Shown: piece by piece, positions 1,500 to 18,826 of the stretch | Numbering within the stretch: the stretch's first letter is position 1 | Layout of the letters: the number at the start of each line of letters is the position of its first letter | Assembly: GCA_031257455.1 (NCBI GenBank) | Contig: JAIROQ010000217.1 | Span: 1 to 19,247 of the forward strand | Origin: Prevotellaceae bacterium | Lineage (GTDB): Bacteria; Bacteroidota; Bacteroidia; Bacteroidales; UBA932 | Reading direction: 5' to 3' | DNA length: 19,247 nt | Made by a program: the position numbers and the translations under genes | Notes under the pieces: model-generated | What the model saw: only the letters and a program-made list of their open reading frames with translations | What the model was told of the DNA's origin: nothing | Database searches by the model: none

Positions 1500-2561
1500 A
1501 TGTATTTTAATCGTCCGGCATTCATATCCCATTTTTCAACACTCGGCAAGCGAATACAGGCATGGCTGCGGGACGAAAAAACCTGCCCTGCATTGAGCGC
1601 TGCCGTGCAAAAAAGCATGGCGGGGAACAGCTGGTTTACCGCCGGCAACATAAGGTACGCCCTTGCCGCCATAGCGGCGGACATGCTGGACGAACAATGC
1701 CTGCAACAATGGCTGGCCGCTTATCCGGCAGCAAAAAGCACGAAGAGGGCAGGGGTAATCATGGCGGGGAATATTCCGTTAGTGGGCTTTCACGATTTCC
1801 TGTGCGTATTGGCGGCGGGGCATTCCTTTACAGGAAAATTGTCGCACAGGGACGCTTTTTTGTTGCCTGCGCTGGCAGACATTCTGGCGGATATACATCC
1901 CGGATGGCGCAGCCGTATTGCATTTAATGAAACGTTGCCGGTAAACGGCATGGATTTTTTCATCGCCACCGGCTCGGATAATTCGGCACATTATTTTGAA
2001 ACAATAGCCGCGACATTGCACGCCTCCGGCGGCGGACGCAGCCTTATTCGCCGCAACCGGCGGAGCGTAGCCGTGCTGAGAGGCGATGAAACCGGAGAAG
2101 AATTAAATGGTCTGGCGAATGATTTATTCGGTTATTTCGGATGGGGTTGCCGCAATGTGTCGTTGCTGTATGTGCCGGCCGGCTATCATTGGCAACCGTT
2201 GGCGGCAGCGCTTTCGGCGCAGCAAACATTATTGCAGCACACCGGTTATGCAAATAACTACCGTTACCAAAAAGCGTTGCTTACCTTACAAAACAAGCCG
2301 TTTCAGGATGTGTCGGTGGCGTTATTGTGTGAGGATGCGTCATTGCATGCGCCGCCGGCGGTGGTGCATTACCGCTATTACCCGACTATTGACGATGCGC
2401 TTGTATCCATTGAGCAGCAACGCGGGCAAATACAATGTGTCGTGAGCAGGGCGGTGAATTGCGATAATTTTTGTACCTTTGGCCATGCGCAGCATCCTTC
2501 ATTGCACGACTATGCCGATGGCGTAGATACAATGAAATGGATGACGGGCAGTGAACAGTGA
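1500..2561 (+). CDS. LuxC-like acyl-CoA reductase
   Basis: A 353-residue member of the LuxC family of the aldehyde dehydrogenase superfamily, which reduces acyl-CoA to aldehyde with NADPH through a thioester. The nucleotide-binding part contains AGVIMAGNIPLVGFHDFLCV (84-103). The expected catalytic Cys is C217 in GWGCRNVSLLYVP (214-226). No luxAB-like genes are nearby, so bioluminescence is not implied; Bacteroidota commonly carry this gene alone. It lies 18 nt after the LuxR-type regulator on the same strand and may be in its operon. The last residues (GSEQ) and the TGA stop are encoded by the first units of a heptad array, an ending shared exactly with murA, so the native C-terminus has been replaced. 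Confidence 0.78.
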   Translation: MYFNRPAFISHFSTLGKRIQAWLRDEKTCPALSAAVQKSMAGNSWFTAGNIRYALAAIAADMLDEQCLQQWLAAYPAAKSTKRAGVIMAGNIPLVGFHDFLCVLAAGHSFTGKLSHRDAFLLPALADILADIHPGWRSRIAFNETLPVNGMDFFIATGSDNSAHYFETIAATLHASGGGRSLIRRNRRSVAVLRGDETGEELNGLANDLFGYFGWGCRNVSLLYVPAGYHWQPLAAALSAQQTLLQHTGYANNYRYQKALLTLQNKPFQDVSVALLCEDASLHAPPAVVHYRYYPTIDDALVSIEQQRGQIQCVVSRAVNCDNFCTFGHAQHPSLHDYADGVDTMKWMTGSEQ

Positions 2562-2730
2562 GCAGTGAGCAGTGAATAGTGAACAGTGAATAGTGAATAG
2601 TGAATAATGAATAATGAACAGCGAATAATGAATAATGAACAGTGAATAATGAGAGGGCGTCAGCCCAATTAGTCACATTAACAAATCAACACATCAACAA
2701 ATCAACAAATCAACAAATCAACACATCAAC
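2547..2730. repeat. Bipartite short-period array after the acyl-CoA reductase
   Basis: Left arm 2547-2654: about 15 heptads such as GTGAACA, GTGAGCA, GTGAATA and ATGAATA, starting inside the upstream coding sequence. Centre 2655-2666: GGGCGTCAGCCC, a 4-bp stem with a GTCA loop. Right arm 2683-2730: six exact or near-exact 8-bp units (AAATCAAC or ACATCAAC) ending directly against the ATG at 2731. The right arm therefore forms the whole visible leader of the next gene. TGA recurs every 7 bp in the left arm, so all three frames close within three units. Confidence 0.9.
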
Positions 2731-3165
2731 ATGATATACCGATTTACCGCTACTGTTGCGTCCTTGAAAGGATTTATGCGCCGGTATGAATTACGCGGCG
2801 CTGATACCTTGTACGATTTCCATGAGCATATCGTAAATGATTTGAATTTTGCTCCCGACCAGATGGTGTTATTCCGCGTGGAAAGCGCGAAGGGAAAGCC
2901 ACTGAAAGAATATGGCCTGTTCGATTTGGGAGACGGCTCAATGGACGAAATATCCATTGAGAAGCTGGTAAAGCAACAGGAAACGACTTTGCTGTATGTA
3001 TTCGATATGCGCGATAACCGTGTCCTGCGATTGTCTTTCGTGGGAACGGACGAGGAATTGCCGCGCAAAAGCTATCCGCGCACTTCGGACGAAAAAGGCG
3101 ATGCGCCCTCGCAGTTCCTCGACCGGCAAGGCCCCGAAGCCTACGAAGACGATGAAGAAGTATGA
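2731..3165 (+). CDS. pRiA4b ORF-3-like / IS1096 passenger TnpR-like protein
   Basis: A 144-residue soluble protein. Residues 1-115 match the plasmid pRiA4b ORF-3 type fold found in many Bacteroidota: a start like MIYRFTATVASLKG, then DTLYDFHEHIVNDL, QMVLFRVESAKG, and a later LLYVFDMRDNRVLRLSF. About the last 30 residues are charged and acidic (EAYEDDEEV). The biochemical role of the family is not established, and the transposon-derived name should not be read as recombinase activity. From memory, Bacteroidales chromosomes often keep this gene next to miaA, as here. The start codon directly follows an 8-bp-period array with no Shine-Dalgarno sequence. Confidence 0.65.
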   Translation: MIYRFTATVASLKGFMRRYELRGADTLYDFHEHIVNDLNFAPDQMVLFRVESAKGKPLKEYGLFDLGDGSMDEISIEKLVKQQETTLLYVFDMRDNRVLRLSFVGTDEELPRKSYPRTSDEKGDAPSQFLDRQGPEAYEDDEEV

Positions 3166-3171
3166 GGTAGA

Positions 3172-3257
3172 ATGGAGAATGGAGAGTGGAGAATGCCGGC
3201 GTTAGCCAAATCAGAAATCAGAAATTAGAAATCAGCAATCAAAAATCCGCAATTAAT
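3172..3257. repeat. Heptad array overwriting the miaA 5' region
   Basis: Left arm 3172-3194 has ATGGAGA/GTGGAGA units. A GC-rich centre CCGGCGTTAGCC (3196-3207) follows. Right arm 3209-3257 consists of seven consecutive heptads: AATCAGA, AATCAGA, AATTAGA, AATCAGC, AATCAAA, AATCCGC, AATTAAT. The array runs straight into the codons for the first beta strand of MiaA, so no untouched leader or conventional start codon remains. Confidence 0.85.
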
Positions 3258-3264
3258 AGTCATC

Positions 3265-4128
3265 TTGGGGCCAACGGGCGTTGGAAAAACGGACTTCAGT
3301 CTGTCGTTGGCGCGCCGTTTGTCCACCGTCATTGTGTCGGCGGATGCGCGACAGGTGTACCGCGAAATGAAAATAGGCACCGCGCCGCCGGACGAACAGC
3401 AGCTGGCAGCCGTTCCGCATTATTTTATCGGCACGCATTCCATTCATGAACGCTATACCGCCGGCCAATACGAGCTGGAGGCGCTGGCATTATTGGAGAC
3501 GCTTTTTGTTTCGCATCCGGTGGTGTTGTTGGTTGGCGGCTCCGGTTTGTATATCGATGCGGTGTGCGCCGGCATGGATAATTTCCCTGAAACCGACCCT
3601 TCGTTGCGGGCCATGCTCACAGAACGCCTGCAAACAGAAGGCATCGAAAGTCTGCGTTTGCAACTGAAACAGCTCGATGCCGCTTCTTACCACGCTATTG
3701 ATTTGAAAAACCCGCAACGGATTATGCGGGCGCTGGAAGTATGCCTTTCCTCCGAAAAGCCTTTTTCCCAATGGAAAACAGGCGTCATGAAGAAACGGCC
3801 TTTTGAGATAGTAAAAATCGGACTGCAACGGCCGCGCGGGGAATTATACGCCCGCATCAATGCCCGCACACAGCGCATGATGGATGACGGGCTGCTGGAA
3901 GAAGCGGAAAAACTCTATCCCCACAGGAATTTGCCGGCCTTGAAAACCGTTGGCTATACGGAATTGTTCGATTACCTGGACGGCAAAACGACACTGGAAA
4001 AGGCCGTACAGCTCATCCGGCAACACACGCGCAATTATGCTAAAAAGCAACTGTCGTACTGGGCGCGCTATGATGACATACAATGGTTAGTGGAGAATGG
4101 AGAGTGGAGAATTGAGAGTGTCTTTTGA
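3265..4128 (+). CDS. miaA: tRNA dimethylallyltransferase MiaA (start uncertain)
   Basis: MiaA transfers the dimethylallyl group to N6 of A37 in tRNAs reading UNN codons. Numbering from the TTG at 3265: P-loop GPTGVGKT at 2-9, SADARQVYREMKIGTAPP near 24-41 (usual SADSRQ), GGSGLYIDAV near 91-100, DLKNPQRIMRALEV, VGYTELFDYLDG, and a final TRNYAKKQLSYWAR. The family normally starts with a strand such as LIVILGPTG. Those residues are encoded just upstream in frame (3253-3264), but the open frame back to a TAG at 3226-3228 contains no ATG, GTG or TTG. Position 3265 is the first listed start but would delete strand 1. The last 12 residues (VENGEWRIESVF) and the stop come from the downstream array, giving an array-coded tail. 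The gene is converging with lolA. Confidence 0.88.
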   Translation: MGPTGVGKTDFSLSLARRLSTVIVSADARQVYREMKIGTAPPDEQQLAAVPHYFIGTHSIHERYTAGQYELEALALLETLFVSHPVVLLVGGSGLYIDAVCAGMDNFPETDPSLRAMLTERLQTEGIESLRLQLKQLDAASYHAIDLKNPQRIMRALEVCLSSEKPFSQWKTGVMKKRPFEIVKIGLQRPRGELYARINARTQRMMDDGLLEEAEKLYPHRNLPALKTVGYTELFDYLDGKTTLEKAVQLIRQHTRNYAKKQLSYWARYDDIQWLVENGEWRIESVF

Positions 4129-4375
4129 GTGGAGAGTGGAGAATGGAGAGTGGAGAGTGTCTTTTGAGTGGAGAGTGGAGAGTGGAGAGTGTCTTTTGAG
4201 TGGAGAGTGGAGAATGGAGAGTGGAGAGTGTCTTTTGAGGCGTCAGCCCATTCTCCACTCTCCATTCTCCACTCTCCATTCGCTAACCATTCTCCACTCT
4301 CCATTCGCTAACCATTCTCCACTCTCCATTAGCTACCCATTCTCCACTCTCCACTCTCCATTCTCCACTTTCAAC
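4089..4375. repeat. Large oppositely oriented heptad array between convergent miaA and lolA
   Basis: Left arm 4089-4238: GTGGAGA/ATGGAGA heptads interrupted four times by the 11-mer GTGTCTTTTGA at 4118, 4157, 4189 and 4228 (spacings 39, 32, 39). Centre: GGCGTCAGCCC at 4239-4249. Right arm 4250-4375: CTCCATT/CTCCACT heptads interrupted by CATTCGCTAACCATT-type joints. The arms are largely complementary, so transcripts from either side could fold into a very long stem and end transcription of both genes (inference). Open frames on both strands here (MESGEW-like and LHSPFS-like repeats) are artefacts of the 7-bp period. Confidence 0.92.
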
Positions 4376-4378
4376 TAA

Positions 4379-5029
4379 TCATCTCAGGTCAATAATTTCC
4401 ACATCTGGATACCGGTGTTTCGGAAAGGCGAAGTAGCCGTCAAATGCTTCCACATTGGGCGTGATACGCGTGATACGCAGGGTATAGTTACCGCTTTTGG
4501 CAAGGTATTTTATGGCATACGGGTTTGCGGTCGCTTCTTCCAGCGTCAATATAATAGAAGTATAAGCGGCCTTTTTATTTTTGGGCGTGAATACTATATC
4601 GGCAAGCGTTTTTCCGTTTTCCGTCCGGGTTGTGTGGCGTTGGTACGTAAAATCCTTTTGGAACAGCGTGAGGAATTTCAACGGGTGGTCGGTAATATCT
4701 GCGGCCGTTTCATCGTCCGACACATATTGAATGATTACTTCGTTGGTTTCTTTGTGGCACATCCACTTGTTCCGCCCATCGCTGTATACGTCCAGCTCAT
4801 CGGTCAGCAGGCGGTATTTGTTGCCGTTGCACAGGAATGTTCCCTCATAGTTATGTCCTATTCCTTTCACAGGATTATCCAGCGTCAGGGTAAATGCCAT
4901 TTCTATGGTCTGGTAGCCGTTGATTTTCCCGGTAAAATCAGCCAGCAGCTGTTGGGTATTTTGTGCGGGAATGCCTGCGGCGTAAAGAAAAATCAGGGCA
5001 AATACGGAAAGAAGTCGTTTTTTAGTCAT
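4379..5029 (-). CDS. lolA: LolA-like outer-membrane lipoprotein carrier
   Basis: A 216-residue protein with a clean signal peptide (MTKKRLLSVFALIFLYAAGIPAQ, cleavage near residue 22 or 23), so it acts in the periplasm. The mature part has the LolA half-barrel pattern: a first helix plus strand around YQTIEMAFTLTLDNP, EGTFLCNGNKYRLLTDELDVYSDGRNKW, DHPLKFLTLFQKDF, and a last strand with the family-typical pattern of alternating residues. LolA ferries lipoproteins from the LolCDE exporter to the outer membrane. In Bacteroidota a LolA-like gene commonly follows ftsK, as here with one gene in between. Upstream lies a 23-bp palindromic repeat instead of a recognisable promoter, so it may be read through from the DUF4469 gene. 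Confidence 0.72.
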   Translation of the reverse strand: MTKKRLLSVFALIFLYAAGIPAQNTQQLLADFTGKINGYQTIEMAFTLTLDNPVKGIGHNYEGTFLCNGNKYRLLTDELDVYSDGRNKWMCHKETNEVIIQYVSDDETAADITDHPLKFLTLFQKDFTYQRHTTRTENGKTLADIVFTPKNKKAAYTSIILTLEEATANPYAIKYLAKSGNYTLRITRITPNVEAFDGYFAFPKHRYPDVEIIDLR

Positions 5030-5046
5030 AAGTCATAATTTTTTAC

Positions 5047-5152
5047 CCGGTCATCGGGTATGGACATACCCGATGGACGGGTATGGACGTACCCGATCGA
5101 CGGGTATGGACATACCCGATGGACGGGTATGGACAGCCCCGTCCACCGGGTA
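5047..5152. repeat. Tandem 23-bp palindromic repeat in the lolA leader
   Basis: Four 23-bp units start at 5056, 5079, 5102 and 5125, with a partial fifth at 5148. Each has the form GGGTAT-GGAC-ATACCC followed by GATGGAC. Units 1 and 3 are identical, unit 2 has two changes, and unit 4 has decayed. Within a unit GGGTAT pairs with ATACCC; across units TACCCG pairs with CGGGTA. Alternative mutually exclusive hairpins are therefore possible on either strand. This sits between the DUF4469 stop and the lolA start. Confidence 0.9.
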
Positions 5153-5188
5153 GGGGGTTATTCTTTTTCTATCCTGCCGTTCAACGCC

Positions 5189-5923: not shown

Positions 5924-5947
5924 AAATTTAATATTTAAAGTTTAGTG

Positions 5948-5955
5948 CAAATGTA
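5948..5955 (-). promoter_or_regulatory. Promoter -7 box of the DUF4469 gene
   Basis: Read on the minus strand the sequence is TACATTTG, matching TAnnTTTG, 25 bp before the start codon at 5923. No good TTTG -33 element is visible because the upstream region is the TTTAAAG heptad array. The leader would be short and A/T-rich, which suits translation initiation in this phylum. Confidence 0.6.
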
Positions 5956-5965
5956 AGAAAATATT

Positions 5966-6041
5966 TTTAAAGTTTAAAGTTTAAAGTTTAAAGTTTAAAG
6001 TTTAAACCTGAAACCTGAAACCTGAAACCCGAAACCCGAAA
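5966..6041. repeat. Heptad array between ftsK and the DUF4469 gene
   Basis: About six TTTAAAG units pass directly into three AAACCTG and two AAACCCG units with the 7-bp period continuing through the change of motif. The array abuts the ftsK stop codon (TAG, 6042-6044) on one side and the DUF4469 promoter on the other. It fills the intergenic space. Confidence 0.88.
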
Positions 6042-8366
6042 CTAAGCCTCCATCGCTGCAAGTTTTGCATCCAGCGTTATGAAGTCTGAAATCAGTACCT
6101 GCCGCGCTTTGCTTCCTTCCGGCGGGCCTACGATGCCGGCGGCTTCGAGCTGGTCCATCAGCCGTCCCGCACGATTGTAGCCAAGTTCCAGCTTTCGCTG
6201 GATAAGCGACGTCGAACCCTGCTGGCTTTGTACGATAATGCGTGCCGCGTCGGCAAACAGGTCATCGCGCTTGCTCAAGTCCACTTTTCCCGCATTACTG
6301 TTATTCTCTTCGCCTTTATATTCGGGCAAAGGAAACGCTTCGCCAAAGCCCTGCTGCCGCCCGATGAAATCGCAGATACGTTCCACCTCGGACGTATCGA
6401 CAAATGCGCACTGCACGCGTATCATCTCATTGCCGGTAGATACCAGCATGTCGCCGCGTCCAATCAACTGGTTTGCGCCGGTGGTGTCGAGGATCGTGCG
6501 CGAATCGATGCCGGAAATGACGCGGAAAGCAATACGCGCCGGGAAGTTGGCTTTTATCAATCCGGTAATAATATTCGTCGTCGGGCGCTGCGTGGCAATG
6601 ACCAAGTGCATGCCGACAGCCCTTGCCAGTTGCGCCAGCCGCGCAATAGGTTCTTCCACTTCCCTGCCGGCGGTCATAATCAAATCGGCAAATTCGTCAA
6701 TCACCACTACGATGAAAGGCATGTACCGGTGGCCTTTCAGCGGGTTTAACCGGCGATTGACAAACCGTTCGTTGTATTCTTTGATGTTGCGGACTTGCGC
6801 CCACTGCAGCAGCTGATACCGCTCGTCCATCTCGATACACAACGATTTCAGGGTATAGACCACCTTTTGCGTATCGGTGATAATGGCGTCATCGCTGTCG
6901 GGCAGCTTCGCGAGGAAATGCTGTTCCAGTTTTGTGTACAGCGACAGTTCCACCCGCTTGGGGTCTACCAGCACTAATTTCAATTCGGACGGATGCTTGC
7001 GGTAAAGCAGCGAAGTAAGAATGGCATTCAACCCGACCGATTTCCCCTGTCCCGTAGCGCCGGCCACCAGCAGGTGCGGCATTTTGGCCAAATCGAATGT
7101 ATAAATGGCGTTGTCGATTTTCTTCCCGAGCACGACCGGCAAGTCGTACTGCGCCTCATTGAATTCTGCGGATTTCACTACCGACAGCATGGATACGATA
7201 TTCGGATGTTCATTCGGCACTTCGATACCGACCGTTCCCTTTCCGGGAATGGGCGCAATAATGCGGATGCCCAATGCCGCCAGATTAAGTGCGATATCGT
7301 CTTCCAGCCGTTTGATGGAAGCAATGCGGATACCCGCTTTCGGGACTATTTCGTACAGCGTAACCGTAGGGCCGATAGTCGCAATGATTTTATCAATGCC
7401 GATATTGAAATTCTGGAGTACGGTTACGATTTTGTCCTTGTTGCGTTCCAGTTCCTCGTCTGTAGGCATTGCGCCTTTTCCTTTATGGTCTTCGAGCAAA
7501 TCCACCGGCGGCCTTTTGTAATGCGACAGTTCCTTCGTGGGGTCGTATAACTCGCTTTCGCCCTCGAAAAACCCGCCGTCTTCCGTGCTGTCGGTTATAC
7601 CGGGAGGAAGGCCGCCGGCGGGGGCGGGGTCTCCGCTGTGGTTATCTCCGGAATTTTCCGAAGTATCGTCACCCGGTCGATGTATTTCAAAGCCGCCATC
7701 ATCGTCTTTCGACTCCTTATCGTCCGGTACCGGTGGCTGCGGTTCCCCGCCGGACACGTCCTCCTTCTCCGGCTTTCTGTTTTTCTTCTTTACATGAAAC
7801 AGGCGGCGCAACCAGGGTATAAATTTCGGGCTGATGAATACACCCCAAGTTATAATCAACAGTAAAAGGAGCAACGCCGTTCCGGCAATGCCGATGACTT
7901 GAATAAGCCAGCCGCTGACCATATCGCCGGTAATACCGCCAAGTCCTTTTCCTGTCAAGCCTTTCAGCGAGGGCATCAAATGCCCGAATACAAATCCAAG
8001 TAATACGGAAAATAAAATACAACCGGTAAGCGCAGCGAGGATTATTTTATAAAAACAGGCAATGCGCATCCTCAGCAAATGCAAGCCCCATAAGCCAAAC
8101 AGGAATGGTATCCCGAAAGACGCCAGCCCGAAATATTCGCCCATCAACAAATTTGCCCAGCTGTAGCCGAGTTTCCCGATGAAGGGGGAAGTCTGCGCGC
8201 CGCTTTGGTAGGCGCCCCAACGAAAGATATACAAACCTAAAACGATGAGCGTAAAAAGCGCAAACAAAAGCGCCAGCACGCCGCCAATGAAACGGAGGTT
8301 GTCACTGCGCCGGTATTGTTCCTCTGTCGGCGGGACTTGCTTTCCGGTATTTTTCTTCTTTGCCAT
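6042..8366 (-). CDS. ftsK: DNA translocase FtsK
   Basis: A 774-residue hexameric ATPase that pumps chromosome ends through the division septum and activates XerCD recombination at dif. The N-terminal 190 residues hold four membrane segments (about 25-48, 78-98, 104-128, 150-178). A proline- and acid-rich linker covers about 195-270, shorter than in E. coli. The motor follows: Walker A GATGQGKSV (436-444), Walker B IVVVIDEFADL (552-562, D557/E558), and IATQRPTTNIITG (590-602). The C-terminal gamma winged helix (about 700-765, ELGYNRAGRLMDQLEAAGIV) reads KOPS-like sites. ATG at 8366 is preceded by an 8-bp-period TTTAAAGA array. Confidence 0.97.
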   Translation of the reverse strand: MAKKKNTGKQVPPTEEQYRRSDNLRFIGGVLALLFALFTLIVLGLYIFRWGAYQSGAQTSPFIGKLGYSWANLLMGEYFGLASFGIPFLFGLWGLHLLRMRIACFYKIILAALTGCILFSVLLGFVFGHLMPSLKGLTGKGLGGITGDMVSGWLIQVIGIAGTALLLLLLIITWGVFISPKFIPWLRRLFHVKKKNRKPEKEDVSGGEPQPPVPDDKESKDDDGGFEIHRPGDDTSENSGDNHSGDPAPAGGLPPGITDSTEDGGFFEGESELYDPTKELSHYKRPPVDLLEDHKGKGAMPTDEELERNKDKIVTVLQNFNIGIDKIIATIGPTVTLYEIVPKAGIRIASIKRLEDDIALNLAALGIRIIAPIPGKGTVGIEVPNEHPNIVSMLSVVKSAEFNEAQYDLPVVLGKKIDNAIYTFDLAKMPHLLVAGATGQGKSVGLNAILTSLLYRKHPSELKLVLVDPKRVELSLYTKLEQHFLAKLPDSDDAIITDTQKVVYTLKSLCIEMDERYQLLQWAQVRNIKEYNERFVNRRLNPLKGHRYMPFIVVVIDEFADLIMTAGREVEEPIARLAQLARAVGMHLVIATQRPTTNIITGLIKANFPARIAFRVISGIDSRTILDTTGANQLIGRGDMLVSTGNEMIRVQCAFVDTSEVERICDFIGRQQGFGEAFPLPEYKGEENNSNAGKVDLSKRDDLFADAARIIVQSQQGSTSLIQRKLELGYNRAGRLMDQLEAAGIVGPPEGSKARQVLISDFITLDAKLAAMEA

Positions 8367-8373
8367 TTTTTCT

Positions 8374-8452
8374 ATTTAAAGATTTAAAGATTTAAAGATT
8401 TAAAGCGTGAAGCGTAACACTGTTCACTGCTCACTGCTCACTGTTCACTGCC
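8374..8452. repeat. Bipartite array between ftsK and murA, overlapping the murA stop
   Basis: One arm (8374-8405) is four 8-bp ATTTAAAG units, ending 8 bp from the ftsK start. The centre is GCGTGAAGCGTAACAC. The other arm (8421-8452) is heptads of the GTGAACA type when read on the minus strand. Positions 8423-8452 are a 30-bp exact match, in reverse orientation, to 2547-2576 at the end of the acyl-CoA reductase gene. The murA stop codon (8438-8440) lies inside this match. Confidence 0.9.
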
Positions 8453-9771: not shown

Positions 9772-9903
9772 TAAAGTGGTTAGAGTAGTTAAAGTAGTTA
9801 GAGTAGTTAGAGGAGTTAGGGTAGTTTTTAGTTGTAAGTGGTAAGTGGTAAGTCGTAAGTCGCTGGCACCGGCACATTGTTCACTGTTCACTGTTCACTG
9901 TTG
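9772..9903. repeat. Bipartite array upstream of murA
   Basis: First a 9-bp-period stretch (GTAGTTAGA or GTAGTTAAA, about 9775-9826), then heptads AAGTGGT/AAGTCGT (about 9834-9861). The centre is CTGGCACCGGCAC (9863-9875), followed by TTCACTG heptads (about 9880-9903). It has the same plan as the other gaps: a G-type arm, a GC-rich centre and a C-type arm. It spans the whole space between the murA start and the inverted-repeat element at 9905. Confidence 0.87.
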
Positions 9904-10141: not shown

Positions 10142-10273
10142 GTTGAAAATGGAGAGTGGAGAGTTGAAAATGGGGAGAATGGTTAATGGTTAATGGTTAA
10201 TGGTTAATGGCGGCAAGCGCATTGTTCACTCTCCACTCTCCACTCTCCACTCTCCATTCTCCATTCTCCATTA
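10142..10273. repeat. Bipartite heptad array downstream of polA
   Basis: The left arm has ATGGAGA-like units, then about five ATGGTTA units up to 10210. The centre is CGGCAAGCGCATTG (10211-10224). The right arm has CTCCACT/CTCCATT units (10228-10273) ending 5 bp before the polA stop. Positions 10202-10248 match 18527-18573 at 44 of 47 positions, showing that junction, centre and arm travel as one dispersed unit. Confidence 0.9.
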
Positions 10274-13062: not shown

Positions 13063-13093
13063 TTCTTTGAATTATGAATTAAAAATTATATAT

Positions 13094-13137
13094 CAAGCGT
13101 CAGCGCTCATACATCATACATCATACATCATACATCA
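13094..13137. repeat. Heptad array between polA and queD, supplying the queD stop
   Basis: The centre AGCGTCAGCGCT (13096-13107) is followed by CATACAT heptads up to 13137. Read in the direction of queD the units are TGATGTA, and the first TGA (13135-13137) is the queD stop codon. The other arm towards polA (13065-13094) is A/T-rich with AATTATGAATT-like units, less regular. Confidence 0.85.
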
Positions 13138-13566: not shown

Positions 13567-13583
13567 ACTGATTTTCTATGCGG

Positions 13584-13591: not shown

Positions 13592-13686
13592 CGAAAAAGA
13601 TTAAAAAAATTAACGCCGGCACGTCCCCCAACCGGCATTTATCAAAAGATGTGAAAAAAATAATTGCGTACAATGATTTTTTTTAG

Positions 13687-13694
13687 TACTTTTG
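13687..13694 (+). promoter_or_regulatory. Promoter -7 box of the L25-Pth-S4 cluster
   Basis: TACTTTTG matches TAnnTTTG and is preceded by a T-rich tract. Transcription would begin near 13701 and give a leader of about 90 nt before the ATG at 13794. That is unusually long for this window, where most leaders are under 45 nt. Confidence 0.65.
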
Positions 13695-13724
13695 CACCCC
13701 CAAAATTAACGCTGCTTTTTAGCT

Positions 13725-13760
13725 ATGAATGCGATGGGATTGCACGGAAAGTGCAATTGA
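13725..13760 (+). other. Possible leader peptide and hairpin in the rplY leader
   Basis: Within the leader, a 12-codon frame runs from ATG at 13725 to TGA at 13758-13760 (MNAMGLHGKCN). It contains a perfect 7-bp stem, ATTGCAC-GGAAA-GTGCAAT (13739-13757). The hairpin is certain from sequence. Translation of the mini-frame and any attenuation or autoregulation by L25 are inferred. Confidence 0.4.
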
Positions 13761-13793
13761 GTAACACTTTTTTAACTAAAATTTTTGATTGCA

Positions 13794-14426: not shown

Positions 14427-14443
14427 CGAAATGTCGTAAATCA

Positions 14444-14501
14444 GGAATTGAGAATTAGGGAATGAATAATTCCTAATTCTTAGTTCTTAATTCTTAATTC
14501 C
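14444..14501. repeat. Array with inverted symmetry between rplY and pth
   Basis: GAATTAGGGAAT (14452-14463) pairs with the later ATTCCTAATTC (about 14469-14479, one bulge), followed by heptads TTAGTTC/TTAATTC up to 14501, one base before the pth ATG at 14503. The outer GGAATTGAGAATTA can also pair with the final TTAATTCTTAATTCC. It may partly terminate the rplY transcript while providing the pth leader (inference). Confidence 0.75.
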
Positions 14502-14502
14502 A

Positions 14503-15063
14503 ATGTCATTTCTTGTTGTAGGGTTAGGCAATATTGGTCTTGAATACGCCCATACGCGCCATAATATCGGATTTGATGTCGTGGATGCATGGGCGGGGGC
14601 GTCCGGCGCGGTATTCAGTACGGTGCGTTATGGCGCTATTACCGAAGTAAAATATAAGGCCAGGCGTTTTATGTTGCTCAAACCTTCGACCTACATGAAT
14701 TTAAGTGGAAAAGCCGTCAATTACTGGATGCAGGCGGAACGCTTCGCGATAGAAAACGTATTGATTATAGTAGATGACTTGGCGTTGCCGTTCGGCACAT
14801 TACGATTGCGCAAGCAAGGCAGCGATGGTGGACATAACGGGCTAAAAAGTATCAATGAACTGCTCGGGCATACCAACTATGCACGTTTGCGAATAGGCAT
14901 CGGCAACGATTTTAGCCATGGACAGCAAATTGATTTTGTGCTTAGCGAATGGACGGATGAGGAACAAAAATTGCTCCCGCCAATTATTGACAAGGCAATT
15001 GATGCGGTGAAATCCTTTGGAACAGCAGGTATCGAACGTGCAATGAATATATTTAATTCCTGA
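14503..15063 (+). CDS. pth: Peptidyl-tRNA hydrolase
   Basis: A 186-residue enzyme that frees tRNA from peptidyl-tRNAs dropped by ribosomes. The active-site set is complete: N10 (GLGNIGLEY), catalytic H20 (HTRHNIGFD), D91 (IIVDDLALPFG) and N112 (GSDGGHNGLKSI). STYMNLSGKAV (62-72) is the conserved substrate-groove motif. Length is typical of the bacterial family. It follows rplY by 76 bp. The stop TGA (15061-15063) is also the first triplet of the downstream TGATTTC heptad array, so the native C-terminal end may have been slightly altered. Confidence 0.97.
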   Translation: MSFLVVGLGNIGLEYAHTRHNIGFDVVDAWAGASGAVFSTVRYGAITEVKYKARRFMLLKPSTYMNLSGKAVNYWMQAERFAIENVLIIVDDLALPFGTLRLRKQGSDGGHNGLKSINELLGHTNYARLRIGIGNDFSHGQQIDFVLSEWTDEEQKLLPPIIDKAIDAVKSFGTAGIERAMNIFNS

Positions 15064-15166
15064 TTTCTAATTTCTGATTTTTAATTTCTGATTTGCTGAC
15101 GCCACTGTGCGCTTGTCGCAACCTTAAACCTTAAACCTTAAACTTTAAACCTTAAACTTCAAACCA
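15061..15166. repeat. Bipartite heptad array between pth and the S4 gene
   Basis: The left arm (15061-15094) has TGATTTC/TAATTTC/TGATTTT heptads starting with the pth stop codon. The centre is GCTGACGCC...GTGCGCTTGTCGC (15095-15118), containing the reverse complement of both common centre types (GGCGTCAGC and GACAAGCGCAC). The right arm (15120-15166) has AACCTTA/AACTTTA heptads. The plan is inverted relative to most other gaps. Confidence 0.88.
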
Positions 15167-15187
15167 AAACTAACCGCTAATTCCCGT

Positions 15188-15568
15188 ATGGTTCGTCTTG
15201 ATAAATACCTTTGGGCTATTCGTGTGTACAAAACCCGTAGCGAAGCGGCAGATGCCTGCAAAGCCGGCCGTGTCAAAGTAAACGGGACAGAAGCCAAATC
15301 CTCGCGGGAAGTGCGCGAAAACGATATGCTTACCGTGCGGAAATTACCGGTAACATATACTTATAAAATTATCCAGTTGGTTGAAAACCGGCAGCCGGCA
15401 AAGAATGTAGCATTGTATGCGGAAAATTTAACACCCGAAGAAGAAAGGAATAAATTAGATAAAAAAAATATCACCGTTTACATCCGGCGCGACCGCGGCG
15501 CCGGACGCCCGACCAAGAAAGAACGCCGCGAAATTGATAAATTATTTGAAAATTTATCTTACGAATAA
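15188..15568 (+). CDS. S4-domain RNA-binding protein, Hsp15 (HslR)-like
   Basis: A 126-residue basic protein. Residues 1-60 are an S4 RNA-binding domain (VRLDKYLWAIRVYKTRSEAA, CKAGRVKVNGTEAKSS, VRENDMLTV). A lysine- and arginine-rich tail follows (YIRRDRGAGRPTKKERREID), as in the heat-shock protein Hsp15/HslR family. E. coli Hsp15 rescues 50S subunits carrying stuck peptidyl-tRNA, which fits its position directly after pth and rplY. No separate promoter is visible; the 124-bp gap from pth is all array. The gene is followed by a strong terminator. Confidence 0.85.
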   Translation: MVRLDKYLWAIRVYKTRSEAADACKAGRVKVNGTEAKSSREVRENDMLTVRKLPVTYTYKIIQLVENRQPAKNVALYAENLTPEEERNKLDKKNITVYIRRDRGAGRPTKKERREIDKLFENLSYE

Positions 15569-15681
15569 TGATAAAATTAAGTAATGCGGAAAGAAAATTG
15601 TCCGTCTTGTTTTAAACCTTTTTCATGAAAGCATATCTATAGACCGAAATAATTTTTCATAAATTTTGTTTTAAGTGGGGA

Positions 15682-15712
15682 GGCGGATGAATATTCATTC
15701 GCCTTCTTTTTT
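15682..15712 (+). terminator. Rho-independent terminator after the S4 gene
   Basis: GGCGGATGAAT and ATTCATTCGCC (15682-15703) form an uninterrupted stem of about 10 bp with one G-T pair, followed by TTCTTTTTT. It ends the plus-strand rplY-pth-S4 transcript. The T-tract overlaps the stop codon of the converging manA (15711-15713). The 110 bp before it hold no gene. Confidence 0.85.
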
Positions 15713-16691
15713 ACATTATATATGTTTCCAATAATGTCGCTTTCGGCGAAGGTAACAGGGTAACATCAGCTATTGCTGCCGGAATTAAGAGCGTTTCGCC
15801 TTTCGTCACAGTTTCGAAATGCTTACCATATTGAATAATGGCGTCTCCGTCTATGCAAACATAAATGACAAAAGAATCGTTTCCCGACAAATTACGTTCC
15901 AATGGGTCGGTAATTTCTACCAGATTTGTTACAAAATAAGGCGAATCGACCAATTGCACAGGTTCATTCGGTAGCCTTGCATAATCTATTTTTGCGTTCG
16001 TCTTTTCTGTATAGTCAATAATGTCGATTGCCTGTTCCACATGCATGGCGCGGGCTGTAGCAGGGTCATGTTCGCGTCCCCAATCGTAAATACGGTACGT
16101 GATGTCGGATGTTTGCTGTATTTCCGCCAGTACAATTCCCTTGCCTATGGCATGGATAGTGCCCGGCGTAATGAAAAATGTATCGCCCGGTTGGACAGTT
16201 ACAAAATTCAGCGTTTCGAGCAGCGTATTATTTTGTACACGATTGTAAAATTCCATAGCCGTCAAATTACGATTAAACCCCACGTACAAACCTGCGCCAT
16301 CATCGGCTTGCAGTATATGCCACATTTCGGTTTTGCCATAAGCATTGTGCCGGATACGCGCTGTTTCATCATCAGGATGCACTTGTACCGACAGTGTTTC
16401 CGCCGCGTCTATCAATTTTACCAAAACAGGAAATTCGATACCGAAACGTTCGTAATTCTTCTCACCCATCAATTCGCCCAAATATACTTCCATCAATTCT
16501 TCAATCGTATTTCCTTTCAGGAAGCCATTGGCCAGTACCGACAGATTGCGTTGCACGGCGGACAATTCCCAGCTTTCGCCGATTTTTTTGGTAGCCGGAA
16601 ACGGTTTATTAAATAATGCGTTTAATTTATTGCCGCCCCACACGGTCGCTTTCGCCTGCGGCTTAAATTTCAAAGGATACAATGACGTCAT
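15711..16691 (-). CDS. manA: Mannose-6-phosphate isomerase, type I (class I cupin)
   Basis: A 326-residue zinc enzyme interconverting mannose-6-phosphate and fructose-6-phosphate, feeding GDP-mannose and surface glycan synthesis or mannose use. Zinc ligands are Q103 and H105 (SVQVHPDDET), E122 (GKTEMWHIL) and H180 (PGTIHAIGKG). R200 lies in YRIYDWGRE. The C-terminal cupin half (about 250-326) ends PKATLLETYIM. The ATG at 16691 is chosen over one at 16745 because a -7 box lies between them at 16706-16713, so the upstream 18 codons, partly array sequence, would not be transcribed from it. It converges with the S4 gene. Confidence 0.94.
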   Translation of the reverse strand: MTSLYPLKFKPQAKATVWGGNKLNALFNKPFPATKKIGESWELSAVQRNLSVLANGFLKGNTIEELMEVYLGELMGEKNYERFGIEFPVLVKLIDAAETLSVQVHPDDETARIRHNAYGKTEMWHILQADDGAGLYVGFNRNLTAMEFYNRVQNNTLLETLNFVTVQPGDTFFITPGTIHAIGKGIVLAEIQQTSDITYRIYDWGREHDPATARAMHVEQAIDIIDYTEKTNAKIDYARLPNEPVQLVDSPYFVTNLVEITDPLERNLSGNDSFVIYVCIDGDAIIQYGKHFETVTKGETLLIPAAIADVTLLPSPKATLLETYIM

Positions 16692-16705
16692 AAAAATATT
16701 TTTTG

Positions 16706-16713
16706 CAAAAGTA
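16706..16713 (-). promoter_or_regulatory. Promoter -7 box of manA
   Basis: The minus strand reads TACTTTTG (TAnnTTTG), 15 bp before the chosen manA ATG. The leader would be only about 8 nt or nearly absent. This site decides the manA start. Remnants of CTCCACT heptads lie just upstream (16735-16753). Confidence 0.6.
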
Positions 16714-16753
16714 AGAAAAAATAATTTGCCGTTTCCACTCTCCACTTTCCACT

Positions 16754-16796
16754 AAAAAAAAGCCGCCGGTACATTTCCATACCGGCGATTTTTTTA
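16754..16796. terminator. Bidirectional terminator between manA and the surface-protein gene
   Basis: CGCCGGTA (16764-16771) and TACCGGCG (16780-16787) form a perfect 8-bp stem with an 8-nt loop. A run of seven or eight A precedes it and seven T follow, so it works on either strand. On the minus strand it would stop the surface-protein transcript, which ends at 16937, before it reaches manA. Confidence 0.8.
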
Positions 16797-16936
16797 GTGC
16801 GCCAACCTTAAACCTGAAACTTCAATGGTTGCGCGATGAAACCCTATGGGTGTAAAGGCACGCTACTGCGTTGCGCTTCCCGCGCAAAGAAAAAAAGAAA
16901 CAAAGGAGAAAAGGTTCACCTCAAACCCAAAGACGG
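16797..16936. other. 140-bp gap without a gene
   Basis: The gap starts with a short AACCTTA/AACCTGA heptad piece (16805-16825) and then has GGTTGCGCGATG, a pyrimidine- or purine-rich block (AAAGAAAAAAAGAAACAAAGG) and GC-rich patches. No tRNA fold, promoter box or credible coding frame was recognised. Its purine-rich part is unlike the neighbouring arrays. It could be the downstream untranslated part of the surface-protein gene. Confidence 0.5.
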
Positions 16937-18457
16937 CTACTTAACGCACTTAACAAGCCAGAGATCATCATCGAAAGCGTCCAGCAACGTGCAGGCGTCG
17001 CAATTGTGGATTATGTACCTTATGCGACCAGGCCCCACATCGCTAGTCCACCATCCATAACACGAACCCATACTGCCGGGCAGGGACGTGTCGTTTTCAC
17101 ACATACAGAACGCCTCTGGCGAAGTGGGCAGTCGCCAACCTGCACCTTTATTTGAACAATACTCATTAGCGGCAGCCCATGCCATGATAGGAGCATTTTC
17201 GTATGATTCACTTGCTACATAGGTAATGCCGGCGCAGGTAGTCCATTTCGCGCAATTGCTAACGCAACAACTTAAACAGGTACCGCTGCAATCTTCCAAG
17301 CCCTCAGCGCAGCCGCAGGTATTGGCCGTTTGACCTTCAGCAGACGGGCTGGTAATGCTTATTGTACCGGTCGTTTCTGCGCTGGTGCAACCATAGGCAT
17401 TGGTTACCGTAACCGTAAAAGCGGTATCTTCATCTAATGTTTGGGTGGTTATTGTGTTTGTTTCGGTAGTAGTTGCCGCCGCGTTGCCGATTGTCCATGT
17501 ATAGCTCATGGAAGAAGTCGTGCCGCTGCTGAGGGTAGCGGTCAGTTCGGCGGTATTGCCCGCGCAGGGGGTAGAGGCGGTTACCGTAGAGACGGTGGGC
17601 AGGTCATGCACCGTAACGGTAATGGTCGTGGACGAAGTAACCGTGCAGCCGCCCTCTGAGCGGACTTGTAATATATAGTCGGTCGTGGTCAAAGGCGACA
17701 CGACAGTGGATGAACTGTTGTCCCATGTCACGCCATTGTCGAAGCTGTAGCGTTGGGCATTGGTCGCGGTAGCGGTCAGCGTTACGCTCTCTCCCGCGCA
17801 GATAGTCATCGTGGAAGCGGCGAAATCAGTAATCGCCGGCATGGGCGACGGTTCGCCCGGACAGCCGGTGAGGTCGGTGAGGGCATAAATACAATTACTA
17901 TAGGTATTGGCGCTCACAGAAACGGTACTGCCGGTGTTGATCGGGTCGGTTTGTATAATAAAGTCCGGCATACCGTTCAGGGTATAACTGCCGGCCTGTT
18001 CGACGGCGTTGGGCGGCCGGTCGATCGCCACGCCGCACCAGCCGAACTGCGGGGCATAACCCACCAAATCTACCGTTACCGGCACGGTTACGGTGGCGGC
18101 AAACGCGCCGGCCGTTCCCTGCAACCAGAAGCCGCTGGTATTGCCCACTTCGAGCGACACCGTGCCGCCGGCGGTGGCGGTGGGCGTTCCGGCAATGCCC
18201 GCCCGCAACCAATCCACATAGGCGTTATCCCTTACCCGCCGGTAATCTACGAACACCCACACTTTGGAGCGGTGGTCGGCATCCCGCGTATTGGCCGGCC
18301 AGGACACCTCAAAGGTCACGGTCGGGGTCGCGGCGTCATAGTCGGCGGTAATGGGCTGTACGCGCACGGTAGAGGCGGTCTGGGCGCTTGCAGCAGTCGG
18401 CAGTAGCAGTAGGCAGCAGGCAGTAAGCAGTCGGCAGCAGGCAGTAAGCAGTGGCAA
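16937..18457 (-). CDS. Secreted Ig-like surface protein, signal peptide out of frame with its ATG
   Basis: A 506-residue open frame. Residues 1-26 are a hydrophobic Ala/Leu/Cys-rich segment ending TAASAQ, like the end of a signal peptide. About 28-200 are an N-terminal beta domain seen in Bacteroidales surface proteins (KVWVFVDYRRV, GFWLQGTAGAF, FGWCGVAIDRPPNA). 206-283 and 284-371 are two Ig/PKD-like repeats. 381-408 is a Cys-rich linker (eight Cys). About 410-506 resemble the Fibrobacter major-paralogous or C-lectin-like module (GWRLPTSPEAF, GWWTSDVG). In this frame the only start is TTG at 18457. The natural ATG (18497, encoding MKKQSTITAKGRI, a good positively charged n-region) lies one base out of phase and runs into a stop near 18337. 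A heptad array in between could switch the frame. Confidence 0.72.
   Translation of the reverse strand: MPLLTACCRLLTACCLLLLPTAASAQTASTVRVQPITADYDAATPTVTFEVSWPANTRDADHRSKVWVFVDYRRVRDNAYVDWLRAGIAGTPTATAGGTVSLEVGNTSGFWLQGTAGAFAATVTVPVTVDLVGYAPQFGWCGVAIDRPPNAVEQAGSYTLNGMPDFIIQTDPINTGSTVSVSANTYSNCIYALTDLTGCPGEPSPMPAITDFAASTMTICAGESVTLTATATNAQRYSFDNGVTWDNSSSTVVSPLTTTDYILQVRSEGGCTVTSSTTITVTVHDLPTVSTVTASTPCAGNTAELTATLSSGTTSSMSYTWTIGNAAATTTETNTITTQTLDEDTAFTVTVTNAYGCTSAETTGTISITSPSAEGQTANTCGCAEGLEDCSGTCLSCCVSNCAKWTTCAGITYVASESYENAPIMAWAAANEYCSNKGAGWRLPTSPEAFCMCENDTSLPGSMGSCYGWWTSDVGPGRIRYIIHNCDACTLLDAFDDDLWLVKCVK
18393..18454 (-). repeat. Heptad array inside the signal-peptide coding region
   Basis: Nine consecutive units on the plus strand: GCAGTCG, GCAGTA (6 nt), GCAGTAG, GCAGCAG, GCAGTAA, GCAGTCG, GCAGCAG, GCAGTAA, GCAGTGG. 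They encode hydrophobic peptide in two frames (LLTACC-like and AYCLLPT-like). Because 7 is not a multiple of 3, each unit gained or lost shifts the reading frame. Loss of one unit would join the ATG at 18497 to the 506-codon frame. Confidence 0.88.
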
Positions 18458-18509
18458 CGATACGCCCTTTTGCAGTAATGGTTGATTGTTTTTTCATAGT
18501 GCCTTTTTT

Positions 18510-18592
18510 AGTTTTTAGTGATTAGTGGTTAGTGGCGGCAAGCGCACTGTTCATTCTCCACTCTCCACTCTCCATTCTCCACTCTCCATTCT
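18510..18592. repeat. Bipartite heptad array upstream of the surface-protein gene
   Basis: The left arm has TTAGTGA/TTAGTGG units (18510-18535). The centre is CGGCAAGCGCACTG (18536-18549). The right arm has CTCCACT/CTCCATT units (18551-18592). Positions 18527-18573 are the second copy of the 47-bp unit at 10202-10248. No TAnnTTTG box was found between here and the ATG at 18497. Confidence 0.88.
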
Positions 18593-18593
18593 T

Positions 18594-18731
18594 CCGTCAT
18601 TCCGAGCGGAGCGGAGCGAAGTCGAGGAATCTCCTGCGTCCTGCACCCACTGCTTTGCATCGCCCTGCGTTGGGTAGGGGATTTCTCCACTCCGCGCGCT
18701 CGTTCCTCGCGCGCTCCGGTCGAAATGACGG
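18594..18731. repeat. 138-bp inverted-repeat intergenic element
   Basis: The left end reads CCGTCATTCCGAGCGGAGCG and continues to GAGGAATCTCC; the complement of the right end reads CCGTCATTTCGACCGGAGCG and continues to GTGGAGAAATCCCC. The ends are imperfect inverted repeats, with further internal GCGCGC palindromes. Sequences of this type (CGTCATTTCGA...GGAGAAATC) are, from memory, widely dispersed in Bacteroidota genomes. There is no coding potential. It sits between the two surface-protein genes, flanked by heptad arrays on both sides. Confidence 0.75.
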
Positions 18732-18735
18732 GGTC

Positions 18736-18826
18736 TTTTAGTCATAAGTTGTAAGTCATAAGTCGTAAGTCGTAAGTCGGCTGGCGCCGGTGCGCTTCCG
18801 CGACTAACCATTAACCACTAACCATT
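18736..18826. repeat. Bipartite heptad array after the truncated surface-protein gene
   Basis: The left arm has AAGTCAT/AAGTTGT/AAGTCGT heptads (about 18739-18778). The centre is CTGGCGCCGGTGCGCTTCCGCGAC (18780-18803). The right arm has AACCATT/AACCACT heptads (18805-18826) that run onto the stop codon of the minus-strand remnant (TAA, 18825-18827). Confidence 0.88.

Follow-up and report, generated by a model that had tools for sequence, protein, structure and literature searches.

Heptamer arrays flank a common near-palindromic core in the intergenic gaps of a Prevotellaceae genus

We analyzed a 19,247-nucleotide stretch of DNA from a Prevotellaceae bacterium (contig JAIROQ010000217.1; hereafter, the window) in which tandem arrays of 7-bp units lie in most intergenic gaps. 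In several genomes of the genus, many such arrays stand beside a near-palindromic core, GCTGRCGC, with G-rich words on its left and C-rich words on its right. Left arms almost always have the same polarity, the core is where arms re-assort, and identical stretches of arm plus core recur at many loci. Congeners differ in the words, the number of copies, and the dominant period found at or across corresponding gaps. In the simplest anatomy, two modules, each an arm plus a cap, are joined cap to cap. The arrays are probably the arms of miniature intergenic mosaic elements, apparently non-autonomous, that resemble the Neisseria intergenic mosaic elements (NIMEs) and whose heptad arms evolve by slippage.

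The window is contig C142 of the source genome, G000 (1,586,482 bases in 225 contigs, from a bin that is 80% complete), which we compared with the other genomes of the genus (G001, G002, G003, G004, G005, G006, G007, and G008). Each of the nine is fragmented (80 to 270 contigs; bins 63 to 94% complete). Counts of lags, array periods, and stop codons come from an unbiased G000 sample of 187,630 bases, made up of the window and contigs C1 to C20. A second G000 sample comprises 20 contigs, 16 of them picked for matches to CAGTGAA, and counts of cores, polarity, words, and synteny use all 41 G000 pieces, including these selected contigs. Coding DNA was defined from open reading frames (ORFs) with no gene finder, array-calling thresholds vary among analyses (9 to 12), and arrays whose unit is itself made of a shorter repeat were excluded throughout.

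Arrays cluster around a common core

The core, whose fuller form is GCTGRCGC(C/GYCAGC), stood out when k-mers of non-coding, non-array DNA were ranked against coding DNA: GCGTCAGC was second among 8-mers in G000 and CTGGCGCC was second in G001. GCTG[AG]CGC occurs 14, 19, and 10 times per 10 kb of non-coding DNA in G000, G001, and G002, respectively, compared to 1.4, 3.0, and 3.2 times in coding DNA. Genome-wide, GGCTGRCGCC far outnumbers its reversed control in G000 (166/6), G001 (437/7), G002 (101/2), G005 (123/4), and G007 (99/3). The excess is weak in G003 (36/17) and G004 (47/14), hardly visible in G006 (19/11), and absent in G008 (15/16). Nowhere among 50 genomes of other genera were counts comparable; the highest was 19 (G031, control 3), and G052 and G057 gave 13/1 and 10/1.

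In G000, an array lies within approximately 50 bp of 79 of the 87 non-coding core sites, compared to 539 of 2340 random non-coding, non-array positions, and arrays lie on both sides at 50 of 87 sites, compared to 118 of 2340 positions (Fisher p ~2e-39 for either side and ~4e-38 for both sides). In this analysis, as in those of left-arm clusters and pair identity, a palindromic core is counted once per strand; merging strands leaves 69 to 71 distinct G000 cores. The link recurs in G001, where an array is near 40 of 59 core sites and on both sides of 17, compared to 182 and 25 of 1200 random positions. The spacers between arrays are often conserved and correspond to the core, and chains of array-core-array-core-array were seen at two loci (L037 and L047). 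By eye, the outer ends of the elements often read TTTTTAGT...ACTAAAAA; the latter occurs 32 times in 37 kb of non-coding DNA versus 15 times in 288 kb of coding DNA.

In the polA 3' gap of G003 (L088, 1234-1539), GTAAGAC, ACAATAG, and TTCGTAA arrays flank a different, longer hairpin, CCGCGAAGCGGTGATATTATTATAG..., which is perhaps another core type.

Left arms are polar and re-assort at the core

In the 48 nt left of the core, G exceeds C at 61 of 69 cores in G000, 39 of 41 in G001, and 75 of 82 in G002 (175 of 192 together). We also scored the orientation of gaps of 80 to 600 bp. Among gaps with an element, those with G on the left and C on the right outnumber the reverse by 35:1 in G000 (63 gaps), 16:3 in G001 (33 gaps), and 26:2 in G002 (60 gaps); gaps without an element gave 10:5 (of 41), 2:8 (of 30), and 26:10 (of 92), respectively.

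Elements that share a left arm lose their similarity just past the core; therefore, arms re-assort there. Dropping cores <50 bp from a contig end kept 86 cores in G000, 56 in G001, and 93 in G002, among which 150, 46, and 187 pairs have the same left 24 nt. Identity within these pairs reaches background at approximately +9 in G000 and at +10 to +11 in G001 and G002. Left-sharing and unrelated pairs agree at 0.31 and 0.26 in G000 (+9) and at 0.48 and 0.59 in G001 (+10), and the difference at +9 in G002 (0.68 vs 0.41) is lost by +11 (0.25 vs 0.30). The right arm is shared as well in only 5 of 150, 4 of 46, and 14 of 187 left-sharing pairs. In G000 (0.58 vs a background of 0.52) and G001 (0.83 vs 0.80), the free core base at +4 shows no linkage to the left arm. 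With arm types defined coarsely by single linkage, the number of combinations is close to random re-pairing in G001 (9 vs 8.7, 10 elements) and G002 (18 vs 18.1, 24 elements). Nine left-arm clusters span more than one species, covering 149 of 244 core sites.

The words form a lexicon common to the genus

A preliminary description of the window held that its motifs are unrelated between sites and suggested that a generating process with free sequence had produced them, rather than the spread of one repeat. By our own count, folding the strands reduces the 12 motifs to approximately eight word families. GTGAACA corresponds to TTCACTG on the other strand, as does AATCAGA to TGATTTC; TTTAAAG, AACCTTA, and AAACCTG are 1 to 2 bases apart; and GTGGAGA or its one-base variant AATGGAG is present in five window gaps. 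The 114 period-7 arrays of the G000 sample draw on 36 distinct 7-words of 1170 possible.

Congeners share many of these words: 11 of 20 between G000 and G001 (shuffled expectation 1.9, maximum 6 in 400), 7 of 15 between G000 and G002 (expectation 1.4, maximum 7), and 5 of 15 between G001 and G002 (expectation 0.9, maximum 4). Comparing G000 with five other genera gave 3 of 23 (expected 1.6, maximum 6), and the 79 named loci share 3 of 20 words with it (expected 0.8, maximum 3). Within the genus, the lexicon is therefore inherited; beyond it, words are mostly different and not clearly shared. Neither free sequence nor the dismissal of a spreading repeat is supported: the words form a lexicon common to the genus, identical 24-mers across arm and core are found at 5 to 10 places in the sample, and the arrays have a fixed polarity around one core. 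Nearness between words shows a weak excess, with 54 of 57 words at most one substitution from another, compared to 40 to 48 in four shuffles.

Period 7 is favored, and the dominant period can shift

The observation behind the preliminary description is confirmed, and its interpretation is partly supported. Tandem Repeats Finder recovered all 12 motifs, and our own caller placed at least one period-7 array in 11 of the 15 window gaps of at least 15 bp (between hand-listed genes, 873 to 18825), calling none in the gaps at 1482-1499, 5030-5188, 13567-13787, and 15569-15710. The period is kept across a change of motif, as reported: TTTAAAG passes in phase into AAACCTG (5966..6042, plus strand). 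The sharp lag-7 peak restricted to non-coding DNA, which had been predicted, extends beyond the window. Base identity at lag 7 in the unbiased sample is 0.343 in non-coding DNA, where other lags up to 40 give 0.26 to 0.30 (except lags 1, 8, and 14, at 0.336, 0.316, and 0.310), and 0.256 in coding DNA, between the values of the neighboring lags.

Non-coding arrays in this sample number 41 at period 7, 23 at period 8, and 2 at period 9, with none at periods 5, 6, 10, 11, or 12; one dinucleotide shuffle per gap, over 112 gaps, gave no arrays of any period. Inside ORFs of at least 80 aa, many of them spurious, we found 19 period-7, 3 period-8, 2 period-9, and 2 period-12 arrays. When ORFs of at least 200 aa are used, their interiors (127.7 kb) hold 5 period-7, 1 period-9, and 2 period-12 arrays, their edges hold 6 period-7 and 3 period-8 arrays, and the DNA outside them (46.7 kb) holds 49 period-7, 23 period-8, and 3 period-9 arrays.

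The constant period of the preliminary description needs correcting: period 8 is over half as frequent as period 7 in G000 and is the commoner one in G002, and the dominant period can shift to 8 within the genus. Arrays of G001 number 31 at period 7, 1 at 8, 2 at 9, and 2 at 11, compared to 8 at period 7, 17 at 8, 1 at 6, and 1 at 11 in the first 20 contigs of G002; outside ORFs in all 60 sampled G002 contigs, there are 44 period-8 versus 33 period-7 arrays. Ratios of period 7 to period 8 of 31 to 1 in one species and 8 to 17 in another are difficult to reconcile with a polymerase copying in steps of exactly 7, one of the processes previously proposed.

Adjacent units are more alike than distant ones (mismatch 0.082 vs 0.147 in G000, 0.064 vs 0.079 in G001, and 0.092 vs 0.113 in G002). 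Substitutions within arrays show an excess of transitions over transversions (235:103, 38:20, and 120:29), which is not diagnostic because mutation is generally transition-rich.

Among 80 named FtsK-centered Bacteroidota loci, 20 contain any array, and period 7 accounts for 22 of 37 arrays, or 19 of 32 when the congener locus L107 is left out; therefore, the preference for 7 is wider than the genus. (L107 is probably from the same organism as G001, because the DNA downstream of ftsK agrees.) Period 7 is also favored in five other genera, represented by G018, G026, G045, G049, and G057, although G045, G049, G057, and three of the four G018 stretches were sampled at matches, not at random. Small samples of G009, G012, and G016 contained no array.

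Such breadth would be expected if each gap grew its own heptad array in situ, by machinery that slips by 7, with the core irrelevant or a slippage-prone site. This account also accommodates the change in unit number at the orthologous QueD-PolA site described below, and heptamers outnumber every other class of long simple repeats in most genomes, according to the parts of PMC4679880 consulted. However, dispersal is needed to explain the word sharing within the genus (11 of 20 vs 1.9 expected) and the stretches found in identical form at many loci. In situ slippage also does not predict polarity about one core, congeners vary in dominant period, and arrays were absent from the G009, G012, and G016 samples. 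We therefore regard pure in situ slippage as unlikely.

Orthologous gaps differ in words, copy number, and period

Gaps beside ftsK, polA, and pth show gain, loss, and replacement of arrays across the genus. In the murA-ftsK gap, G000 has CAGTGAA and ATTTAAAG arrays, G002 has only a similar 8-mer array, G001 has none, and G005 has CATCATCA/CATCACCA arrays around a core. The MiaA-LolA gap holds 8-mer AATGTGCT words and two cores in L107 and 7-mer GGAGAGT words in G000. In the QueD-PolA gap, TCATACA is present in approximately four copies in G000 and approximately one copy in the G002 element (by eye), which fits slippage by whole units. Orthologous gaps of relatives hold other words, other copy numbers, and even another period. 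The expectation that relatives would differ in copy number was thus borne out by TCATACA, and arrays occur in other bins of the genus.

Listing pairs of <450 bp yielded 42 comparisons of syntenic gaps (22 with G002 and 20 with G001, two window gaps being in both). Arrays were called in both species in 2 G002 and 2 G001 comparisons, in G000 alone in 2 and 8, in neither in 18 and 10, and in the relative alone in none; the CAGTGAA-based choice of contigs biases these figures toward arrays in G000 over relatives. G000 has an array in 14 of the 42 comparisons, and in the 4 in which both species have one, the called unit was never the same. By eye, three G001 gaps (L046 4411, L012 3850, and L047 6792) keep the plan of words, core, and reversed words but with other words.

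One alternative is that the arms are selected regulatory sequence, the G-poor, C-rich RNA arms acting as bidirectional rho-utilization sites or as unstructured leaders before starts, the G-rich arms following stop codons, and the period arising as a by-product or from repeated protein contacts. In co-directional gaps of three genomes, the sense strand has G>C near stops in 60 of 81 non-tied cases and C>G near starts in 43 of 62, no trinucleotide of the 57 words is more enriched than ACT/AGT (30 vs 16.5 in shuffles), and divergent gaps of G001 seldom have arrays (1 of 15). The symmetry of the element alone, however, gives the same stop/start pattern. Moreover, array frequency is similar in co-directional, convergent, and divergent gaps of 15 to 1200 bp (0.40, 0.37, and 0.31 in G000; 0.12, 0.19, and 0.14 in G002), and arms are freely lost or changed at orthologous gaps, leaving regulatory selection a distinctly improbable origin.

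It is extremely unlikely that the arrays are an artifact of assembly or binning in a fragmented metagenome bin. All nine genomes of the genus are fragmented, and tandem repeats assemble poorly, but the arrays have heterogeneous units and are found in contig interiors, with syntenic genes on either side; matching architecture is found in bins G001, G002, and G005, and heptads occur in a 2.66-Mb contig of G018.

How the elements may form and spread

In the mosaic element that we propose, a module would be a tandem 7-, 8-, or 9-mer arm, read on its G-richer strand, that ends in the short cap GGCTGRC. Two modules placed cap to cap in opposite orientation would give an element of G-rich arm, core, and C-rich arm, and the junction would therefore read as the near-palindrome GCTGRCGC(C/GYCAGC). 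Arms may grow, shrink, and homogenize by replication slippage or unequal exchange in one-unit steps, which would keep the period while the word drifts. Recombination or template switching, at the core and where words are shared, may carry modules to new gaps and let them swap partners. Insertion would mostly be tolerated outside genes, and for that reason arms would abut, and sometimes hold, stop codons. We take the preference for 7 (or 8) as a presumed property of slippage, after Mrazek and colleagues (2007), whose proposal, as relayed in the parts of PMC4679880 consulted, is that 7 nt may be the length that interacts with the polymerase.

Several observations weigh against the mosaic-element reading. 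To the right of the core, C exceeds G at 52 of 69 cores in G000 and 25 of 41 in G001 but at only 34 of 82 in G002, and element-free gaps share the G-left/C-right lean in G002 (26:10 of 92) and in 79 named loci (60:26 of 233). Several arrays of the window have no recognizable core, and heptad arrays without the GCTGRCGC core exist in other genera; core and arrays are therefore separable. The point of exchange is not finely placeable because the search pattern dictates core positions +0 to +3 and +5 to +7, and G002 shows partial linkage to the left arm (left-sharing vs background 0.83/0.61 at +4, 0.60/0.39 at +8, and 0.68/0.41 at +9). Pairings in G000 are less mixed than random (18 combinations vs 21.6, 5 to 95% range 20 to 24, 34 elements). 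The 8-mers are no better explained as 7-mers plus one base than in shuffles (16 of 27 at distance 0, compared to 9 to 16 in six shuffles), and this derivation was rejected. High arm complementarity (score of at least 14) is found in 6 of 69 G000 elements versus 8 of 274 mismatched pairs and in 8 of 41 versus 14 of 158 in G001. Finally, no empty site with a target duplication was identified, and no mobilizer was tied to the core in the nine genus genomes, whose bins are incomplete; G001, with the most cores of all, has neither a Y1 transposase nor an IS110-type gene.

A Y1 transposase was found in 2, an IS110-type gene in 3, and a reverse transcriptase (RVT_1) in 4 of the nine genomes, and mobilization by RAYT (REP-associated tyrosine transposase), IS110, or reverse transcriptase was rejected because the distribution of each among genomes mismatches that of the core. 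Tyrosine recombinases are present in 9 of 9 and are uninformative either way. A miniature inverted-repeat transposable element (MITE) would have terminal inverted repeats and a target-site duplication in common with a transposon; neither such a duplication nor a parent transposon was identified.

A hairpin or terminator is not supported as a general rule. Mean complementarity of true versus mismatched arms is little or no better in G000 (7.45/7.01) and G002 (6.19/6.34), although it is better in G001 (9.66/7.37), and scores of at least 14 occur in 3 of 82 G002 elements versus 10 of 325 mismatched pairs. Given the complementary minority in G000 and G001, the hairpin reading fits some elements.

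A stronger version of the mosaic-element reading, which we consider doubtful, is that a putative dedicated recombination process at GCTGRC half-sites swaps heptad arms among hundreds of intergenic sites, rewriting gene ends and leaders. If true, one uncultured Bacteroidota clade keeps rewriting its gene ends and leaders from a common lexicon of 7- and 8-mers. Several phyla are known to have heptamer arrays, and the coexistence of many words is unexplained in the parts of the literature consulted; the anatomy offered here would treat words as arms of set polarity attached to a common core, at which arms are exchanged. It makes testable predictions (a junction at the core, unit-step changes, and lexicon inheritance), and the system lets intergenic DNA turnover be followed between still-syntenic species. 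Because some arms hold stop and C-terminal codons, this turnover touches proteins too.

Comparison with known repeats

In plan, NIMEs appear to be the closest known system. As described in the parts of PMC3898611 consulted, a short palindromic repeat (dRS3) and variable segments (RS repeats) form intergenic mosaics; there are almost 700 dRS3 copies, and recombination between copies by a phage integrase has been suggested. Neisseria dRS3 is ATTCCC(N8)GGGAAT, 20 bp, whereas the core here is GCTGRCGC(C/GYCAGC), and the RS families (30 to 160 bp) are not described in those parts as heptad arrays, in contrast to the 7- and 8-mer arrays of fixed polarity reported here (PMC3898611). The elements of this genus therefore share with NIMEs a palindromic repeat with variable segments, as a core with re-assorting arms, but not the dRS3 sequence.

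In the narrow sense, short tandemly repeated repetitive (STRR) sequences comprise a few fixed words per genome, unlike the 36 7-words in 114 G000 arrays. In the broad sense, together with long simple sequence repeats (SSRs), they are over-represented 7-nt tandem units in non-coding DNA, and the arrays belong with them. The consulted parts of PMC4679880 and PMC4692102 describe mostly intergenic tandem 7-mers in cyanobacteria, Xanthomonas, Beggiatoaceae, and a few Bacteroidota; one region holds several words, indels that separate close strains are mostly multiples of 7 nt, and the arrays are often near start codons. Examples include TAACTGA arrays, mixed heptamers, and indels that mostly span whole 7-nt units (PMC4679880) and, in PMC4692102, convergent inverted repeat pairs in Xanthomonas and heptads in Xanthomonas and Nostoc. 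These repeats are described mainly word by word; a common core, head-to-head arms, and arm exchange are not described in those parts, and the consulted part of PMC4060949 contains nothing further on heptamers. The preliminary description cited no Bacteroidota parallel; heptamer arrays in that phylum are already published (PMC4679880).

Repetitive extragenic palindromic (REP) sequences, bacterial interspersed mosaic elements (BIMEs), and CGTC repeats are likewise palindromic, mostly intergenic, and often arranged as head-to-head dimers (PMC3733652, parts consulted). The CGTC type apparently has no dedicated transposase and includes Bacteroidetes, and Neisseria dRS3 is CGTC-1; its stems are 8 to 9 bp, almost always with A/T at the first two positions, and its tail is mostly CCA (PMC3733652). 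The element here differs in its G/C-rich stem and heptad arms, and by eye CGTC is missing from the GCTGGCGCCAGC forms. Mobilization of a REP/BIME-type element by a RAYT (Y1) transposase would account for the near-palindromic core, head-to-head pairs, intergenic location, and high copy number, and G000 and G002 each have a single Y1 match. We nevertheless find this very unlikely: G001 (94% complete, most cores) has no Y1 match, the core lacks the published CGTC-REP features, and the G000 Y1 gene (L099, C217) is flanked, REPtron-like, by its own different CCGTCCCTGACGGGACGG-type palindrome, unrelated to the heptad core. A REPtron, a Y1 gene flanked by the repeat itself, was not identified in the nine genomes, of which two have Y1 and whose bins are incomplete.

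BrickBuilt, a minisatellite MITE of Porphyromonas gingivalis, is another small, dispersed, intergenic element of Bacteroidota with tandem repeats, but it has a 23-nt unit, a leader, a tail, small inverted-repeat ends, 19 copies, and another consensus (PMC4596501, parts consulted). Titles and abstract openings in the open-access literature gave no description of the present element, which is weak evidence of novelty because subscription papers fall mostly outside that search. What appears to be new is the heptad-armed form of intergenic mosaic repeats; heptamer arrays themselves are already known (PMC4679880).

Elements and genes of the window

The following features are on the plus strand unless marked minus. 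Complete elements begin with a (CAGTGAA)n left arm with C/T and G/A variants (2549..2652), in which the upstream ORF has its stop codon (2559-2561) and which is followed by the core GGCTGACGCC (2656..2665, minus) and an 8-mer right arm, AACAAATC (2680..2731). A second copy of GGCTGACGCC (4239..4248, minus) separates (GGAGAGT)n blocks with GTCTTTTGA spacers (left arm, 4089..4238) from (CTCCATT/CTCCACT)n blocks (right arm, 4249..4369); the miaA frame crosses the first GGAGAGT block and stops in the first GTCTTTTGA spacer. Long cores join a (TAATTTCTGATTTC)n left arm that starts within the final pth codons (15054..15094) to an (AACCTTA)n right arm (15120..15165) through GCTGACGCCACTGTGCGCTTGTCGC (15095..15119), and an (AAGTCGT)n left arm (18740..18779) to a (TAACCAT)n right arm (18805..18827) through GCTGGCGCCGGTGCGCTTCCGCGAC (18780..18804).

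Two other junctions were recognized by eye. Between an (AGAATGG)n left arm (3169..3195) and an (AAATCAG)n array (3208..3253), both from Tandem Repeats Finder, lies a degenerate core, GCCGGCGTTAGCC (3195..3207), that does not match the core pattern. A second core type, GGCGGCAAGCGCAT (10209..10222), lies between an (AATGGTT)n left arm (10178..10210) and a (CACTCTC)n right arm (10227..10272); CAAGCGCA, of this type, is enriched in non-coding DNA (27 occurrences vs 16 in approximately 8 times as much coding DNA). The core GCTGACGC (13097..13104, minus) adjoins the (TCATACA)n array of the QueD-PolA gap (13107..13137).

The remaining arrays include the 8-mers AAATCCGT (138..165, Tandem Repeats Finder), which lies beyond the range of the preliminary description and beyond the counted gaps, and ATTTAAAG (8374..8405), whose counterpart in the same G002 gap has other unit variants. 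Next to the latter, (CACTGTT)n (8418..8451), the minus-strand form of CAGTGAA, holds the murA stop codon and is missing from the same gap of G002 and G001. There are also a 9-mer array, AGTAGTTAG (9775..9826, Tandem Repeats Finder), and arrays of AAGTGGT/AAGTCGT (9830..9862), TGTTCAC (9878..9902), (TAATTCT)n (14467..14500), TCCACTC (short, 16734..16753), TTAGTGG type (18505..18535), and CTCCACT/CTCCATT (18545..18592, Tandem Repeats Finder).

The frames of miaA, the ORF at 1500-2561, and murA enter arrays at 4089-4128, 2549-2561, and 8438-8450, respectively; the stop codon lies within the array for the latter two and in the spacer past the first block for miaA. Of the 112 ORFs in the unbiased sample that are at least 200 aa long, 11 have their stop codon inside or touching an array. 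At the start of the ORF at 16937-18457, a GCAGTAG array (18393..18456) read in frame gives a hydrophobic, signal-peptide-like stretch, MPLLTACCRLLTACCLLLLPTAASAQ, if the predicted start is used.

The gene content of the window is ordinary. Profile matches identify miaA, a LolA-type chaperone, and an S4-domain protein; a QueD-like protein scores just under the family cutoff; and polA is named via the annotation of its relatives. We take four further genes to be ftsK, murA, a ribosomal L25-type gene, and pth from the resemblance of their translations. The closest named FtsK relative among the matches returned is that of Prevotellaceae bacterium Roe453_bin86 (85%). The 353-aa ORF at 1500-2561 has no Pfam or NCBIfam match at E 0.001 and is 81% identical to an ORF of L107. 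No part of the window matched Rfam at the gathering score, and, when plasmids were searched at the DNA level with polA, the matches were all distant.

The window also contains repeats of other kinds. The LolA-DUF4469 gap (5044-5152) has approximately four tandem copies of a 23-bp unit, CGGGTATGGACATACCCGATGGA, with palindromic parts, with neither a heptad array nor a core. A G+C-rich dispersed repeat at 9905-10140 has identical 24-mers at three other places in the sample (L007, L010, and L032), and a further dispersed repeat at 18596-18738, GTCATTCCGAGCGGAGCGGAGCGAAG..., has identical 24-mers at four to five other places.

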